Source: Bacteroidota bacterium (GTDB lineage: Bacteria; Bacteroidota; Bacteroidia; CAILMK01; JAAYUY01). Taken from it: 40,449 nucleotides of DNA. The stretch covers positions 1-40,449 of the forward strand of contig JABINZ010000121.1 of the NCBI GenBank assembly GCA_018698135.1, written 5' to 3'. A program made the translations under genes and the position numbers. Shown here piece by piece: positions 17,234 to 25,851 of this stretch. Positions within the stretch are counted from its first letter, which is position 1. The number at the start of each line of letters is the position of its first letter. Under the pieces are notes generated by a model that was given only the letters and a program-made list of their open reading frames with translations, had not been told where the DNA came from and did no database searches.

Positions 17234-17241
17234 TAGGTTTG
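17234..17241 (+). promoter_or_regulatory. gatE-gatD promoter -7 box
   Basis: TAGGTTTG, an exact TAnnTTTG match, 45 bases before the gatE ATG. Its TTTG contains an in-frame TTG (17239) that could be miscalled as a start; the box argues against that. No clear -33 element. Confidence 0.45.
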
Positions 17242-17286: not shown

Positions 17287-19257
17287 ATGACTCAAACTTT
17301 TGATCCGGTTCAGAATTATGAAGATAGCAAGAAAGCAATTGGATATGTGAACCGAAAGGAGGCTACACAAGCTGATTACGACAGAATTGGATTCATGTCG
17401 GGCTTAGAAGTTCACCAGCAATTATTAACCAAGCGAAAGCTATTCTGCCGATGTCCGGCAGGAATTTACAATCAGAGTGAAGATTATGATGCAGAAGTCA
17501 TTCGCCATATGCGTCCAACATTAAGCGAATTGGGCGAATACGATGGCACTGCATTGATGGAATTCAAAACGCGAAAAAACATTGTTTATCGGATAAAGAA
17601 TGAGACAGCCTGTACGTATGAAGTAGATGACACTCCTCCTTTTCCTATTGACCCTGAGGCTTTGGAAAAAGCACTCGAAATTTCCATTTTAAGCAATTTG
17701 AATATTGTTGGCGAGGTGCACATTACCCGTAAACAGTATTTAGATGGAAGTATCCCAACAGGTTTCCAAAGAACTGCAATTTTAGGTGTAGAGGGTGAAA
17801 TTCAATTGAAACATAAAAAAATCAGGCTCATTCAGTTGAGTATTGAGGAAGACTCCTGTCGTGAAGTTTCAGATATTGGTCATTGGCGAATTTACAAAAC
17901 AGATCGATTAGGCATGCCTCTGATTGAAACAGTTACTTATCCTGAATTCATGAATCCTGATGAAGTAAAAGAAGGTGCCGATTACATTCGTTTTTTAAAC
18001 CGAAGCACTGGAAAGGTTAGAACTGGCGTTGGCTCAACTCGGGCAGATGTTAATGTAAGCTGTAAAGGTGGAACACGTGTAGAGATAAAAGGGGTTGCCC
18101 ATACCAATTGGATGCCCGAACTCACACATATTGAAGCTTTCCGCCAATTTGCATTGTTAAATATCAGGACACTACTAAATAATAAGGTAAAAGATACGGC
18201 AAAGTGGAATTTATCTCATATTGAATTAACAGCTGAAGACTTCAAATACAGCTACGAGCCACTCATTCAAGCAAATAAAAATAACAATAAAATAATTGCC
18301 ATTAAACTACCTCAATTCAAAGGTATTTTATCTCACTTTACACAACCTACAAAGATTTTTGCTGACGAGATTTCTGACCGATTAAAGGTTATTGCTTGTA
18401 TCGAAAAACCAAACATGTTGCATTCTGAAAAGCTGGAAAAAGTGATTACGGAATCTAATTTCGAAAAGGTCAACAACATTCTTGATGTGAAGGAAGATGA
18501 TGCATGGATTGTGTTTTGGGGACCTGAAGAAGACATTCCAACAGCTCTTGAAACAGTTGAAGAAAGATGTCGTATGGCATTTGAAGGAGTTCCAAACGAA
18601 ACCCGGAAATCATTTATAGATGGCAGCACAATTTTCGAACGCGTTCTCCCTGGTGCTGACCGCATGTATCCTGATACCGATACTGCACCTATTCCTTTAA
18701 AAGATGAGTTTATTGAGAACATTAGAAAGAACTTACCCATGGATATTCATGAGCGTATTGCTCAATTACAATCATGGAGTGTTCCATACGACACCTATAC
18801 TTTTATTCTGAAAAGAAATTTAGTTCCTTTAATGGAAAAAATTAATAAGGAATTAGGAATTAGCTATCCATTTATTGGCACTTTCATTGGACACAAGTTG
18901 AAGTTCGTAGAAAATAATTTTGAATGTCCTCAGGAGTTTAATTACGAGAAACTTTACGATTTGTTTAAATACATGAAAGACAATAATCTTGATCTTTCCA
19001 TTGCTAAAAATATGTTAATCGAATATTATCAGCATCCAAAATTGGATTTTGATTCTGTTTTAACCTATATCAATTTCAAGCCTGTTACAAAGGAGGAGAT
19101 AATTGAAAAGATTCCATTCCTGAAAGAAAAATTCAAGGAAATCAAATACTCTGAGAAAGAAGATGTTGATGCACATTGGATAATGGGGCAAGTTGCAAAA
19201 ATGGCGAGAGGAAACATTCGTTTTTCTGAACTCAAAGAATTGGTTGATTCTCAATAA
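17287..19257 (+). CDS. gatE: Glu-tRNA(Gln) amidotransferase subunit E (archaeal type)
   Basis: Activates Glu-tRNA(Gln) by phosphorylation and amidates it with ammonia supplied by GatD. The protein has 656 residues from ATG 17287 (MTQTFDPVQN). The GatB/E cradle domain has GLEVHQQL (39-46), KLFCRCPAG (51-59; Zn-type Cys pair), YQ-like KQYLDGSIPTGFQRT (149-163), EEDSCRE (187-193), DRLGMPLIE (206-214), VGSTRADVNVS (248-258) and GTRVEIKGV (262-270). An AspRS-like GAD insertion follows (about 335-440), then LPGADRMYPDTDTAPI (454-469). The insertion separates GatE from GatB, which is only ~480 residues. The C-terminal YqeY-like tail ends MARGNIRFSELKELV. gatD follows after 13 bases. GatDE is described as archaeal, so a bacterial copy implies transfer or an under-described bacterial lineage. 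Confidence 0.93.
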   Translation: MTQTFDPVQNYEDSKKAIGYVNRKEATQADYDRIGFMSGLEVHQQLLTKRKLFCRCPAGIYNQSEDYDAEVIRHMRPTLSELGEYDGTALMEFKTRKNIVYRIKNETACTYEVDDTPPFPIDPEALEKALEISILSNLNIVGEVHITRKQYLDGSIPTGFQRTAILGVEGEIQLKHKKIRLIQLSIEEDSCREVSDIGHWRIYKTDRLGMPLIETVTYPEFMNPDEVKEGADYIRFLNRSTGKVRTGVGSTRADVNVSCKGGTRVEIKGVAHTNWMPELTHIEAFRQFALLNIRTLLNNKVKDTAKWNLSHIELTAEDFKYSYEPLIQANKNNNKIIAIKLPQFKGILSHFTQPTKIFADEISDRLKVIACIEKPNMLHSEKLEKVITESNFEKVNNILDVKEDDAWIVFWGPEEDIPTALETVEERCRMAFEGVPNETRKSFIDGSTIFERVLPGADRMYPDTDTAPIPLKDEFIENIRKNLPMDIHERIAQLQSWSVPYDTYTFILKRNLVPLMEKINKELGISYPFIGTFIGHKLKFVENNFECPQEFNYEKLYDLFKYMKDNNLDLSIAKNMLIEYYQHPKLDFDSVLTYINFKPVTKEEIIEKIPFLKEKFKEIKYSEKEDVDAHWIMGQVAKMARGNIRFSELKELVDSQ

Positions 19258-19270
19258 ATGATTGAATATA

Positions 19271-20656
19271 ATGAGCGAAGATATATTTCAAGGATACAAA
19301 GGACAAGCTTTAGAAGTTTTAAAGAAATTCAAAGCACGTGTTTGGGCGCAGGTGGCCGCTGAAACTACACGTGGCAAATTTGAAGGCACCATTCTTCCCA
19401 GAGCAGAAAATACAGATGACGAGCATATTGTGCTTAAAATTATTACTGGATATAATGTAGGATTAGACATTCACACAATCACCAGTATTATTGAAACAGG
19501 ATATAAAAAAGCCAATTACGCCATTCCAGAGAAAGAATTTCCATTTACAGAAGGTTTACCCAATGTAAAGCTATTTGGAACAGGTGGTACAATTGCTTCT
19601 CGTTTAGATTATAGAACTGGAGCAGTTATTCCTGCTTTTTCACCAGGAGAGCTTTATGGAGCCGTTCCTGAATTAGCAGATATTTGTAATTTAGATACTG
19701 AAAAGGTTTTTGCTGTATTTAGTGAAAACATGGGACCTCAACAATATATTTCTTTAGCACATGCTATCAAGAAAGAAATTGAGAATGGAATTGATGGTAT
19801 TGTCATTGGTCATGGAACGGATACATTGCAGCATACGGCTGCAGCTTTATCATTTATGGTTAAAAACCCTCCTGTTCCTATTATTTTAGTTGGTTCTCAG
19901 CGCTCTTCTGACCGTCCGAGTTCTGATGCTGCATTAAATCTTATGCATGCAATGAACACAGCTGGAAATTCAGATATTGCTGAAGTAATGGTTTGCATGT
20001 TTGGTCCAACCTCTGATGAATATGGATTATTACACAGAGGTACTCGTGTTCGTAAAATGCACTCCAGTTACCGTTCAACATTCAGGACTATTGGTGACAC
20101 ACCAGTTGCCATGGTTACCCGTGACAGCATTACTCCTTTGAAAAAAATATACAACCACAGGCGTAAGGATAAGAGTGTAGAAATCGCTCCTTACTTCGAG
20201 GATAAAGCTACCATGCTTTACTACTATACAGGTATGAAGCCCGACATCATGCATTCCATGATTGATATGGGTTATAAAGGAATTGTAATTGTTGGTACAG
20301 GTTTAGGTCACGTGAACAAAGAGTTATATCCTGCTATTGAAAGAGCACAAAAAGAGGGCGTAAATGTATTTATGACCTTACAAACTATTTGGGGTTATGT
20401 TCACATGTTTGTATATGATACTGGTCGAGATATGATGGCAAAAGGTGTTGTTCCTTTAGCGAATATGCTTCCTGAAACAGCCTACATTAAATTGGGTTGG
20501 GCATTAGGCCAAACTGATGATTATGAAAAAGTAAAAGAAATAATGCTTACCCCTATGTGTTCTGATATGACAGAAAGAGAGCCGTATAATGGTTATTTAG
20601 TCTATCAGGGTGGTGTTCCTGAAGTGGAAGACTTTATTAGAAAGGTGCATAAGTAG
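19271..20656 (+). CDS. gatD: Glu-tRNA(Gln) amidotransferase subunit D (asparaginase-like)
   Basis: Supplies ammonia to GatE by hydrolysing glutamine or asparagine. The protein has 461 residues from ATG 19271 (MSEDIFQGYK). Residues about 20-75 are the small N-terminal GatD domain (VWAQVAAETTRGKFEGTIL). The L-asparaginase-type domain follows, with FGTGGTIASRLDY (102-114; first catalytic Thr107), GAVIPAFSPGEL, GHGTDTLQHTA (180-190; Thr183, Asp184) and GTRVRKMHSS (257-266; Lys262). All four expected catalytic residues are present. Ordinary asparaginases are ~330 residues and lack the N-terminal domain and the SPGELYGAVPEL segment. Its position right behind gatE confirms the pair. A strong terminator ends the operon. 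A TTG nine bases upstream is a less likely start. Confidence 0.94.
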   Translation: MSEDIFQGYKGQALEVLKKFKARVWAQVAAETTRGKFEGTILPRAENTDDEHIVLKIITGYNVGLDIHTITSIIETGYKKANYAIPEKEFPFTEGLPNVKLFGTGGTIASRLDYRTGAVIPAFSPGELYGAVPELADICNLDTEKVFAVFSENMGPQQYISLAHAIKKEIENGIDGIVIGHGTDTLQHTAAALSFMVKNPPVPIILVGSQRSSDRPSSDAALNLMHAMNTAGNSDIAEVMVCMFGPTSDEYGLLHRGTRVRKMHSSYRSTFRTIGDTPVAMVTRDSITPLKKIYNHRRKDKSVEIAPYFEDKATMLYYYTGMKPDIMHSMIDMGYKGIVIVGTGLGHVNKELYPAIERAQKEGVNVFMTLQTIWGYVHMFVYDTGRDMMAKGVVPLANMLPETAYIKLGWALGQTDDYEKVKEIMLTPMCSDMTEREPYNGYLVYQGGVPEVEDFIRKVHK

Positions 20657-20676
20657 AGAAATTTTCAAATTGACAG

Positions 20677-20712
20677 AATAGCCGAGGGTTTAAACCTTCG
20701 GCTATTTTTTTT
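20677..20712 (+). terminator. Terminator of gatE-gatD
   Basis: Stem AATAGCCGAGGG / CCTTCGGCTATT followed by eight T residues, 21 bases after the gatD stop. Its far edge touches the stop codon of the convergent membrane-protein gene. Confidence 0.88.
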
Positions 20713-21805: not shown

Positions 21806-21957
21806 GAGGTTGTCTCAAAAGTCATAAATTCTATCATGTGGCGTCATTCCCATGAAAATGGGAATCTCATAATCAACAACTTAGAGATTCCCGCATTCCT
21901 GCCTGCCGTCAGGCATGGCGCGAGAATGACAGTCAGAAGGACTTTTGAGACAGCCTC
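21806..21957. mobile_element. MITE-like inverted-repeat element, 152 bp
   Basis: Terminal inverted repeats of about 18 bases: GAGGTTGTCTCAAAAGTC at the left and GACTTTTGAGACAGCCTC at the right, one mismatch. Inside is a second pair, GTCATTC...GAATGAC, around ATTCCCAT-gaaa-ATGGGAA and a CCTGCC/GGCAGG-type hairpin. There is no coding capacity for a transposase. It supplies the last 25 codons and stop of xrtN, so it inserted into or right at the end of that gene. No clear target-site duplication could be seen. Confidence 0.8.
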
Positions 21958-23317
21958 TATTCTTTTCACAAGCAATAAATAAGTTCATTTGTAAAAGTCT
22001 ATCGCATTCTATTTTCAATTCCTTCAAACTTTCCGTAGTAACATTAATCAAACGATAGGCTTCTGCTCCTTTTATCATATTTAATCGCCATTCGATTTGT
22101 GAAATGCTTTTGTCCAATCCATTATCAAACCACCAAGCTGTATACAGAACTTCCTTTTCAGGAGATGTGAGTTTGGTATAATAGATTTCCTCATCATCTA
22201 TTTTCAATACATTTACATTGTTGAATTCATACCCGCTACCTTCCCAACAGATTAAAGGATTATGGTCGGCACCATAAAACTGACAGCTAGCTTTAACATA
22301 TACCAATGCTTTCTCGCTCTGGAATTTGTAAATGTCAGTTTTATAGCAAGTTTTAGTATAACCCTCCACAGATAAATACTCCAATGGCCGGTCTGTTCCA
22401 GTATTTTTAAATTCATCACGTTTTATATTTAGAAATGTCAAAATCAGAATCAAAATGCCGGATACGGCATATTTAATAATACTATTTACTTTTTTGGGGA
22501 AGCTCTCTTCAGGTTTTGCTTTTCGATTTTTCATAATTGCTTTACTCACAAAAAACATGGGCAGCATAAAGTAAATCAATAAGCAAATAACGCCAACAAG
22601 CTCATGTCCAAATGTTTCTGGTGGAAATGCTAATATCACAAGCAACACTATTCGCAAAAAATTTGAGAAAAGGAGAACAATGAAAGCAATACACATGATC
22701 AGGCTTATCCATAGAAAATTGATTTGGACTTTAAAGAGTTTTGAAAAATAGGCTATATAAAAAAGTTGAATAACTAAGCCTAAATTCATCATTTTCAAAC
22801 CCATACAAGCCGGATCGACCGAAAAACTCTGCTCTCCCATGATGATTAAATTGCCAAACGATTTCACATCATTGAAAAACAAACTCAGTGTTGAAGCTGC
22901 AAATCGGGTAAGTTCAAGTCTGATTGGGAATCCAAATACTTTGAATAGGTAAATTGAAAGTGGCGAAAGCAATACAACAAGGAATAAAACTGTATCGTTC
23001 AGCCGTCCAAAATGAGATTCGATGGTGAATAGAATTAAAAATACAAAAGCAAAAAAGTAACAGCATTGTATTTTAAGTATAATATACAAAAGGAGAAAAA
23101 CAAAAGCAAAAAAAGCAAAGCGCATGCTGTTTACTCCTTTTTTTTGAAAGAAAAGGGTAAAAGGTGCCAACAGTAAAACCAACTTTAGCTCGAAAGAGAA
23201 ATGCATATACTCGAGCACATTGGCCCCTCCCATCAAAATCACTAAAGCAATTAAGATGTGTGCGGGTACAAGTTGACTATAGTTGATAGTTGAAACTATT
23301 TTCTTAATAAAATCCAT
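21881..23317 (-). CDS. xrtN: Exosortase N
   Basis: Membrane transpeptidase-like protease expected to process proteins bearing a short C-terminal sorting signal. About eight N-terminal helices carry the exosortase triad: Cys171 in DPACMGLKM, Arg222 in SNFLRIV and His238 in FGHELVG. A soluble C-terminal region follows, about 300-453. Residues 454-478 (from RGCLKSPSDC) are translated from the inverted-repeat element at 21806-21957, so the natural C-terminus has been replaced. The triad is intact and the enzyme may still work. It overlaps the VIT-protein gene by 22 bases. The adjoining VIT protein ends in a VPEPHEW signal, which points to the XrtN subtype and not XrtF or XrtK. Confidence 0.88.
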   Translation of the reverse strand: MDFIKKIVSTINYSQLVPAHILIALVILMGGANVLEYMHFSFELKLVLLLAPFTLFFQKKGVNSMRFAFFAFVFLLLYIILKIQCCYFFAFVFLILFTIESHFGRLNDTVLFLVVLLSPLSIYLFKVFGFPIRLELTRFAASTLSLFFNDVKSFGNLIIMGEQSFSVDPACMGLKMMNLGLVIQLFYIAYFSKLFKVQINFLWISLIMCIAFIVLLFSNFLRIVLLVILAFPPETFGHELVGVICLLIYFMLPMFFVSKAIMKNRKAKPEESFPKKVNSIIKYAVSGILILILTFLNIKRDEFKNTGTDRPLEYLSVEGYTKTCYKTDIYKFQSEKALVYVKASCQFYGADHNPLICWEGSGYEFNNVNVLKIDDEEIYYTKLTSPEKEVLYTAWWFDNGLDKSISQIEWRLNMIKGAEAYRLINVTTESLKELKIECDRLLQMNLFIACEKNRGCLKSPSDCHSRAMPDGRQECGNL

Positions 23318-25800
23318 TGGATTTTTTTGCGGTATGAAAAGTATAATACTATGCTAAGTGCAAGAATAATTAAAACCCATTCGTGGGGTTCAGGAACAGC
23401 ACCTGAAGAATTAGCACTGGCATTTCCCAAACTGTTTTTGTTCTCCTCAATTCCAAACCTTTCGTAATCGGCTACAGTTTCCAAAACTATTAAGCTGGAA
23501 ACCGGACTGGTAATAAATGCTTTTTCAGCTATTGGAACTAACTCCTCAATCCTCGCATCCTTATCACCAAAATAAGCTGCACCTGCTTTTTGAATTATTG
23601 AATTATAGGCATACAGTCTCATTAAATGTTCATTACCTTGTCCGCCATGCTGTAAGTTGGAATCCATACTAATCTGCATTTCTGCTTTAGGGATATAAAC
23701 TGTATTTGAGGTTTTTACAATCCTTTTAATTTGATTATTCTCTATGATTTCTTTAAGGTCTCCAATATTTCCTTCCATATAATTAAAACAATCAAATTGC
23801 TTTAAAGTCTCTAAGTAGGGAGACAATTCTCCGCCTAAGTTTATTACATTAATTGACTCTGTCATGTTGAGCAAATACACTATTAAGTTTTTTCCAAATT
23901 CAGATTCTTTTAATTCATCGATATTGGGAGATATATAATTACTTTTTGTGATAACAATAGAGGATTCTGCATCAGGAATAAAATGAAAAGGAAATAAGGA
24001 ATAGTTCTTTTCGACTACTGACCTGAATAATGCTGATGAAGCTTGGGATTCAATCGTGATAAGCTTATCATCATAGATAAATACCTTTTTATCAGCACAC
24101 ATTTTCAATATGTTATCATACTCTCTTTTTGTCCAATGGGAATTAACATCCATATAAACTGTTTGTATATTTATGTCTTGAAGTTCATATGCAATAGGTG
24201 AGACTTTATAAGCCTCTCCGTCAAATAAAAAGCTTTCCTCACTTAAAGGTGGTGATTTTATGCTGAATGCTATTTGTTTGCATCCACGACCAGTATAAAT
24301 GTATTCATTTATTGACTTCGAGTCGAAATTCTTTAATCCAATAGGATGAAATGCCTTATCATCTTTAATTCTCAACAGAACCGATTCCCGACATGCCTTA
24401 ATTGGAGGTCCTGTAATATGCTCAGCCTCATAATAGAGTTTTCCATTTTCAAATTTCATAGGTGATGTATAGCCAAGCTTAAATCGTCTATTTTCCGCAG
24501 GCGTACAAGGAAAAACAGCAATGGTCACAATGTTTCCTTCCTGCCAATGCAAAATGGATGGATCTCGTCTTTCAACACCTACAATAGTTGTATAGGCGCT
24601 ATCGGCTTTTTTTCTTGTTGATAATCTCGACTTTTCTTCTACGCCATTGATCCAAAGCGACAAGGAGGTTGCTGTTGACCCTTCGGGTAGTTTAAAACTA
24701 TATAAAGCTTCTTGTTGATTTCTTTGCCAACTTGAGCTATTCTTAATACTGATAATTTTTTCCGTATACGCAATTCGATAGTCGGGGTACAGCCTGATAT
24801 TGGTTAACACTTCGGACGTACTCAAATTATCGCCACGCCACAGTTTTCTTCTCGATAAATGCCTTGTGTTGAAGGATGTATTCAGAATATTAATTCTTGC
24901 TTTATCGCTCAGGTTGAGATCTGGTCTCAAAAGCATTGCAACAGCTAATACAGGATCGTTTTTCTTCATTTCATCAAATGATCCTATCGAATTCCATCCC
25001 CAATTTGATAATAATTCATCTTCATACAATAATCCTGATTTCAGAATTCGTTCGGTAAAATAGTTATTGGGCATTCGTTGGCTTAGTTCTACCCAATCAG
25101 GCAGGCTGGATGTTTGACCAGTTAATATTTCTGCCGACTTTCTATGCATGCTATCTGCTATTTGAGCATTCCAATAGATCAGAATAACTACAGCAATTAA
25201 TGGTAGTGAAGCGCCAATGCTAAAAGAAATATTATCATAATAAGTCCTTTTGGCTTTGAAGAAAAGGATTAATGCAACCAGAAACAGAACAAACGGAATA
25301 TAAACATGAATAGTTAGTCCGAAAAGTATCATACCAATAAAACCAATTCCCCATAATGGAACCATAAACAAGGAATAAAATAAAACAATGGTAGCACCAA
25401 CACCTACTATCAGATAATTGAAAGTCACAAGATATTTTGGAACATTATGGCGAAAAACATGAACAACCAAAGCGAGATGGAAAAGAATCAAAATAATGGA
25501 CACACCCAATACCAATTCAGAAAAAATCTGAAAATCGAGATTGAGACAAAAACAGGAAATTGAAAAGAGAGAGAGTACCCATACAAAATGATTTCCATTG
25601 TAGCCCTCTTTCTTCTTGTAGGCGAAATAGTTGGCAATACTATAGCCACCATAAGCAGCTGCTATAATAAAGCAAATAAAAGAGTATCCCTCAATATCGT
25701 TGGTATCCATTTGTCGAAATATCATAAATAAACTAAAAGAGATTAGAACCAGGAAAAATCCCACAATAAAAATTGGGCTAAGTTTTAATTTTGCTTTCAT
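23296..25800 (-). CDS. XrtN-system VIT-domain protein with C-terminal sorting signal
   Basis: Expected dedicated substrate of the adjacent exosortase. 834 residues from ATG 25800 (MKAKLKLSP); a TTG 45 bases upstream is an unlikely start. The first ~230 residues hold about six membrane helices. A VIT (inter-alpha-trypsin) domain follows at about 330-450 (LYSFKLPEGSTATSL, VGVERRDPSILHW, RFKLGYTSPM). A large extracytoplasmic region contains short ALFRSVVEK-like segments. The C-terminus has the classical tripartite signal: VPEPHEW (about 802-808), a hydrophobic helix and the basic RKKIQWILLRK end, so cleavage or transfer near PEP is expected. The biological role of the protein is not known. It starts 51 bases after the regulator gene in the same operon. 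Confidence 0.87.
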   Translation of the reverse strand: MKAKLKLSPIFIVGFFLVLISFSLFMIFRQMDTNDIEGYSFICFIIAAAYGGYSIANYFAYKKKEGYNGNHFVWVLSLFSISCFCLNLDFQIFSELVLGVSIILILFHLALVVHVFRHNVPKYLVTFNYLIVGVGATIVLFYSLFMVPLWGIGFIGMILFGLTIHVYIPFVLFLVALILFFKAKRTYYDNISFSIGASLPLIAVVILIYWNAQIADSMHRKSAEILTGQTSSLPDWVELSQRMPNNYFTERILKSGLLYEDELLSNWGWNSIGSFDEMKKNDPVLAVAMLLRPDLNLSDKARINILNTSFNTRHLSRRKLWRGDNLSTSEVLTNIRLYPDYRIAYTEKIISIKNSSSWQRNQQEALYSFKLPEGSTATSLSLWINGVEEKSRLSTRKKADSAYTTIVGVERRDPSILHWQEGNIVTIAVFPCTPAENRRFKLGYTSPMKFENGKLYYEAEHITGPPIKACRESVLLRIKDDKAFHPIGLKNFDSKSINEYIYTGRGCKQIAFSIKSPPLSEESFLFDGEAYKVSPIAYELQDINIQTVYMDVNSHWTKREYDNILKMCADKKVFIYDDKLITIESQASSALFRSVVEKNYSLFPFHFIPDAESSIVITKSNYISPNIDELKESEFGKNLIVYLLNMTESINVINLGGELSPYLETLKQFDCFNYMEGNIGDLKEIIENNQIKRIVKTSNTVYIPKAEMQISMDSNLQHGGQGNEHLMRLYAYNSIIQKAGAAYFGDKDARIEELVPIAEKAFITSPVSSLIVLETVADYERFGIEENKNSLGNASANSSGAVPEPHEWVLIILALSIVLYFSYRKKIQWILLRK

Positions 25801-25851
25801 AATTTCTGTTTTTAAAGCACTTTGTTTTTCAAAGTTTGGATTCAAAAAAAT

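Follow-up and report, generated by a model that had tools for sequence, protein, structure and literature searches.

A GatE-GatD gene pair in bacteria that possess glutaminyl-tRNA synthetase

The 40,449-nucleotide stretch of DNA analysed here (the window) comes from a Bacteroidota genome (G000; 4.23 Mb, 97% complete) and carries adjacent genes for both subunits of the Glu-tRNA(Gln) amidotransferase GatDE. This bacterial GatDE has the architecture and the catalytic residues of the family, is encoded in an operon, is under purifying selection, is widely spread in bacteria, and coexists with glutaminyl-tRNA synthetase (GlnRS), with GatA, or with both. With regard to activity, substrate and role alike, we infer that it is probably a working Glu-tRNA(Gln) amidotransferase, which supplements GlnRS as a second or corrective route. 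GatDE itself is a known protein family, while its bacterial host range and the GlnRS setting appear to be undescribed. No description of a bacterial GatDE was found in the literature searched, which covered the smaller part of the subscription papers, and genome pipelines may already name such proteins.

Reviews from 2021-2022 treat GatDE as confined to archaea and as an archaeal signature protein (PMC8007984, PMC8762117, PMC9499178). No archaeon has been reported to have GlnRS, and the archaeal use of GatDE is explained by that lack (PMC9499178). Arguments about LUCA, and about the reason why GlnRS was never adopted by archaea, build on the absence of GatDE from bacteria (PMC8762117, PMC9499178). 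A conserved bacterial GatDE living with GlnRS contradicts the stated archaea-only distribution; an archaeal host that has no GlnRS, which G000 is not, describes where GatDE occurs and is no property of the protein. Cells in which both systems work on one tRNA-Gln pool make the supposed incompatibility of GatDE and GlnRS directly testable.

The gatE-gatD pair and its products

The following features were located in the window:

17287..19257, + strand: gatE, Glu-tRNA(Gln) amidotransferase subunit E, 656 aa (NF003107, TIGR00134; structures 2d6f, 1zq1)
17374..18186, + strand: catalytic (cradle) core of GatE, with the ATP/metal motifs GLEVHQQL, IEEDS, PLIETVT, RADVNVS and RVEIKG (motif conservation)
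18277..18525, + strand: GAD (AspRS-like) insert of GatE, residues 331-413 (Pfam GAD, E = 9e-4)
18739..19236, + strand: helical and tail domain of GatE, which in archaeal GatDE binds the tRNA elbow / D-loop (Pfam GatB_Yqey, 27.3 bits, over cut-off)
19271..20656, + strand: gatD, Glu-tRNA(Gln) amidotransferase subunit D, 461 aa (TIGR02153, NF003217; 1zq1_A, 2d6f_A)
19373..19486, + strand: GatD_N domain (Pfam PF18195, 39.5 bits, cut-off 25.7)
19589..19591, + strand: codon of catalytic Thr107 of gatD (alignment to M. thermautotrophicus GatD and 37 bacterial GatD)
20675..20708, + strand: intrinsic terminator 3' of gatD (15-pair stem and T-run)

The original prediction placed the two genes at 17287-20656, 13 bases apart, and these coordinates hold; both genes lie on the + strand. 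An in-frame TTG at 17239 is an alternative start for gatE, but a less likely one, because the relatives start at the ATG of 17287.

The assignment to GatE and GatD, rather than to GatB and a simple asparaginase, was likewise confirmed by the NCBIfam equivalog profiles. GatE scores 471.7 bits against NF003107 (cut-off 456) and 407.2 bits against TIGR00134 (cut-off 319.55), whereas all GatB models are far under their cut-offs (best 129.5 bits, cut-off 338). GatD scores 497.1 bits against TIGR02153 (cut-off 324) and 496.6 bits against NF003217, and its scores on asparaginase models are below these. Among solved structures, both subunits come closest to the archaeal GatDE complexes, GatE to the GatE chains of 2d6f and 1zq1, and GatD to 1zq1_A and 2d6f_A.

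The Pfam order in GatE is GatB_N, GAD insert and GatB_Yqey. The GAD insertion that had been predicted is recovered at 19.8 bits, slightly under the curated Pfam cut-off of 23.4; this insert is a feature specific to GatE, and most GatB proteins are without it. The predicted helical tail is also supported. Although the AlphaFold model of the whole GatE is poor (mean pLDDT 52.5, 14 sequences), its usable part is the C-terminal helical region, where the helical and tail domain is all-helical at a pLDDT of about 75-93. In a Foldseek search with this poor model, the GatE chains of 1zq1 and 2d6f took the top ranks. The residues of the ATP/metal motifs are invariant, or almost so, across 48 aligned GatE sequences.

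In GatD the Pfam order is GatD_N, Asparaginase and Asparaginase_C, and the GatD_N domain sets GatD apart from simple asparaginases. Both this N-terminal domain (the PF18195 match) and the four catalytic residues are as predicted. The tetrad Thr107, Thr183, Asp184 and Lys262 aligns with T101, T177, D178 and K254 of M. thermautotrophicus GatD, and is invariant in 39 GatD sequences.

The pair thus resembles the archaeal GatDE of M. thermautotrophicus (2d6f) and P. abyssi (1zq1) in both subunits, in domain layout, in the GatD tetrad and in the GatE ATP/metal motifs, with identities over the aligned parts of 33-38% for GatE and 45-47% for GatD. It differs from them in its bacterial host with GlnRS, in the U1-A72 pair of the tRNA-Gln, in the constant pairing of gatE with gatD, in a fast-diverging tail, and in forming separate deep clades. 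With bacterial GatCAB it shares the chemistry and the homology of GatE to GatB; unlike in GatCAB systems, G000 has no GatA, and GatE is far under every GatB cut-off, on a very long branch from GatB. With the Type I and Type II L-asparaginases it shares the catalytic domain of GatD, but GatD has GatD_N, far exceeds the GatD cut-off, and is paired with GatE. It is very improbable that GatD and GatE act purely as a glutaminase or asparaginase with no role on tRNA. The asparaginase type of the GatD catalytic domain and the position of GatD as the more conserved subunit would suit such an activity, but GatE has been retained with GatD, its kinase motifs are invariant, and GatD_N is present.

The original prediction also described a Bacteroidota-style transcription unit with a -7 box and a terminator. 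The terminator is real and strong (-21.7 kcal/mol, z = -7.2). The -7 box TAGGTTTG is indeed present before gatE at 17234-17241, but chance alone would give 57 matches to the pattern TANNTTTG in the window, and 46 were counted; at this chance frequency, the box does not count as evidence.

In all genomes that show both genes, gatE and gatD are neighbours in an unchanged order, with a gap that is mostly of a few bases and in some genomes of about 100 bases to 1 kb. The gaps of about 1 kb are seen in some genomes of family f62 (L128, L139). Among the genomes compared, conservation of the genes around gatED was limited to local blocks, each confined to a single group. The constant order of the pair amid variable neighbours indicates that it is a self-sufficient unit. 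Comparisons of close relatives gave dN/dS values of 0.02-0.08 (gatE) and 0.006-0.04 (gatD). Both genes are therefore under strong purifying selection, even in the presence of other Gln-tRNA routes.

Occurrence in bacteria and descent

GC content is even (0.34-0.38) over the 40 kb contig, and gatED is flanked by genes of Bacteroidota type, among them those for PNPase, FolE, and exosortase XrtN with the protein that it sorts. The gene for XrtN (TIGR04476, 336 bits) adjoins that for the XrtN-system VIT-domain protein (TIGR04477, 834 bits) at 21884-25845 on the - strand; XrtN and its sorted VIT-domain protein are a known system.

GatE was found in three of the four genomes examined of the window's family. 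In G001, a 92% complete genome of the same genus, GlnRS is present and GatE was not found. GatE also occurs in 13 MAGs, mostly of Bacteroidales, at 59-68% identity. Of 395 genomes of the phylum that were searched, those with GatE over cut-off were G000 and 29 belonging to other classes. In one such class of the same GTDB phylum, that of G199, 110 of 391 genomes and 62 of 190 genera carry it. The relatives thus lie in many independent genomes, single-contig assemblies among them.

Bacterial GatDE is therefore neither archaeal contamination nor a one-off. That the contig is mis-binned archaeal DNA, or that the pair is a recent transfer in decay, would agree with the description of the family as archaeal (PMC8762117, PMC9499178), but both readings are refuted by these data and have next to no probability. 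The uniform GC, the Bacteroidota-type flanks (e.g., XrtN and its sorted protein) and the many independent relatives, some of them in single-contig assemblies, speak against them, as do the intact frames and the purifying selection. The alternative of an under-described bacterial lineage, which the original prediction had also raised, is well supported by the spread among genomes, by the MAGs and by the tree described below.

A tree of 65 GatE and GatB rows (45 bacterial GatE, 3 archaeal GatE and 17 GatB) was built by a quick method. One of the three archaeal rows is the N-terminal part only, from a frameshifted plasmid copy. The GatB rows form one group and the archaeal GatE rows another, each with 100% SH-aLRT support. 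The bacterial GatE fall into two deep clades, the window's clade of 17 rows (100%) and a second clade of 27 rows (96%), and one long row (G423) remains unplaced in either. Both clades are separate from the three archaeal sequences and from GatB, to which the branch is very long; accordingly, GatE does not nest with GatB. In the second clade the sequences cluster largely by family, as is expected from mostly vertical descent. In the window's clade, the GatE of G223, a genome of another class, nests among the others, and that of G597, from the same family as G223, is 60% identical to the window's, with a GatD identity of 78%. The window-type pair in these two genomes points to its transfer between classes. 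The loci concerned are L150 (G223) and L250 (G597), with identities of 60-62% for GatE and 78% for GatD.

By comparison with the three archaeal sequences, bacterial GatDE may have been gained from archaea or may have been retained since an older split. No archaeal relative was found in viral contigs, and plasmids yielded one, a frameshifted Natrinema copy. It is an unannotated gatE-like gene spanning two reading frames on the haloarchaeal Natrinema thermotolerans plasmid CP031304.1 (L087 3001-4900); either the copy itself is frameshifted or the sequence is in error.

Other Gln-tRNA routes and the tRNA-Gln

The check for gatCAB, glnS and GluRS that had been proposed with the original prediction gave GlnRS, no GatA and one GluRS in G000. 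The GlnRS is full length (769 bits in the profile search), GatA was not found in this 97% complete genome, and the single GluRS copy is at L002. Elsewhere in the window's clade, 15 other genomes are GatE-positive (G002, G003 and the 13 MAGs); GlnRS is over cut-off in 12 of these 15, and GatA in none. The draft MAGs G062, G065 and G069, with neither GlnRS nor GatA over cut-off, were rejected as GatDE-only cells, since the same search gave no complete GluRS match in them either, and they are probably incomplete.

In the other classes, GlnRS is present in 26 of the 29 GatE-positive genomes and GatA in 22. The three in which GlnRS was not found (G317, G353 and G380) all have GatA. In G353 (L181) and G380 (L182), which belong to family f78 and are 99% complete, GatDE and GatA are present without GlnRS, and GluRS lies mid-contig; the absence of GlnRS looks genuine. 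Gln-tRNA must therefore arise by amidation in these two, where GatCAB is also present. G317 was not accepted as a GlnRS-less genome; its GluRS meets the contig end (87218-87418 of 87504), and in its sister genome G122 glnS comes just after GluRS, so that the lack is probably due to an assembly gap. In no well-covered GatE-positive genome sampled was GatDE found as the sole route to Gln-tRNA.

The equivalent of Arg358 (T. thermophilus numbering) was considered as a marker of discriminating GluRS. It is Arg in 28 of the 28 GluRS in which the region is readable, those of the two GlnRS-less genomes included, and being the same with and without GlnRS it is uninformative here.

Archaeal tRNA-Gln has A1-U72 and C12-G23, and A1:U72 is reported to be read by archaeal GatDE (PMC9499178). 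The two tRNA-Gln genes of G000 are of bacterial type, with U1-A72 and G12-C23, and the tRNAs of the genome are standard bacterial ones. In G003, too, both tRNA-Gln carry U1-A72 in place of the archaeal A1:U72; in G000, A1-U72 is found on tRNA-Trp alone. The A1:U72 pair is a property of the substrate, reported for archaea, and does not define the protein family. The discriminator base of tRNA-Gln is A73 in archaea and G73 in bacteria (PMC9499178). Both G000 isoacceptors have A73 (L096), and the gatE-bearing family member G003 has G73 (L110).

The archaeal-style role in Gln-tRNA synthesis that the original prediction implied is not supported as stated, in view of the full GlnRS, the bacterial-type tRNA-Gln and the presence of another route in every well-covered genome with GatDE. 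It is distinctly unlikely that GatDE and a non-discriminating GluRS supply most of the Gln-tRNA(Gln), with GlnRS as the minor route. The complete and strongly constrained GatDE would fit this reading, but the GlnRS beside it is full length at 769 bits. A73, the archaeal discriminator (PMC9499178), is present in both G000 isoacceptors, yet G003 has gatE and G73; and the two relatives that credibly have no GlnRS both carry GatA.

Proposed function beside GlnRS

In the favoured reading, that of a second or corrective route, GluRS would charge tRNA-Gln with Glu, and GatDE would then convert Glu-tRNA(Gln) to Gln-tRNA(Gln), alongside the charging by GlnRS. GatD would release ammonia by hydrolysis of glutamine; GatE would phosphorylate the Glu side chain on the misacylated tRNA and then amidate it with the GatD-derived ammonia. 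Such a role is favoured because GlnRS is present in this cell together with a single GluRS. It also draws on the equivalog-level matches, the invariant residues, the purifying selection, the self-sufficient gene pair, and the amidation needed in G353 and G380. Against it stand G001, which has GlnRS without GatE, the lack of GatDE dependence in the well-covered genomes sampled, the U1-A72 pair in tRNA-Gln, and a GatE tail that is hardly conserved between the clades.

In tRNA-Gln, the small D-loop is what the tail of archaeal GatDE recognises (PMC4810234). When GatE is compared across the two bacterial clades, identity falls from 64% in the core to 32% in the GAD insert and 15% in the tail; the core has 42% identity to archaea. 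A conserved core with a diverged tail suggests that the chemistry is fixed while the tRNA-reading part changes. Such a pattern would suit both an adaptation to bacterial tRNA-Gln and a changed substrate.

A changed substrate would mean a repurposed amidotransferase, which keeps the GatDE chemistry, recognises a different tRNA or other acceptor, and no longer takes part in general Gln decoding. To this reading, the main rival, we give a small but real probability. To our knowledge, GatDE is known for Gln only. The difference in identity between tail and core would fit repurposing, as would the lower identity of GatE (46%) than of GatD (68%) between the bacterial clades, while the two archaea compared are near-equal in the two subunits (59% and 58%). 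GlnRS is present in the cell, and the tRNA-Gln does not have the A1:U72 that archaeal GatDE reads. However, no neighbour gene of gatED suggests another pathway, there is no obvious alternative tRNA, as A1-U72 in G000 is on tRNA-Trp alone, and glnS adjoins gatED in one genus.

A more specific proposal, possible though doubtful, is that of a bacterial GatDE branch beside GlnRS with retuned tRNA recognition, which would act as a Glu-tRNA(Gln) repair enzyme or as an amidotransferase for another aminoacyl-tRNA. Neither GatDE as a repair enzyme beside GlnRS nor GatDE for another aminoacyl-tRNA is described in the searchable literature. In Bdellovibrio, Thermus and Deinococcus, which have GlnRS, AsnRS and GatCAB, an amidotransferase is likewise kept beside direct synthetases, but there it serves Asn (PMC4206432).

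For the corrective route at tRNA-Gln there is a weak pointer from genus g112, in which glnS directly adjoins gatED in both genomes where the region is visible (G083 and G714). In these, glnS is convergent to gatD-gatE and directly adjacent to it, at L225 4918-8234 (G083) and at L236 2149-5710 (G714).
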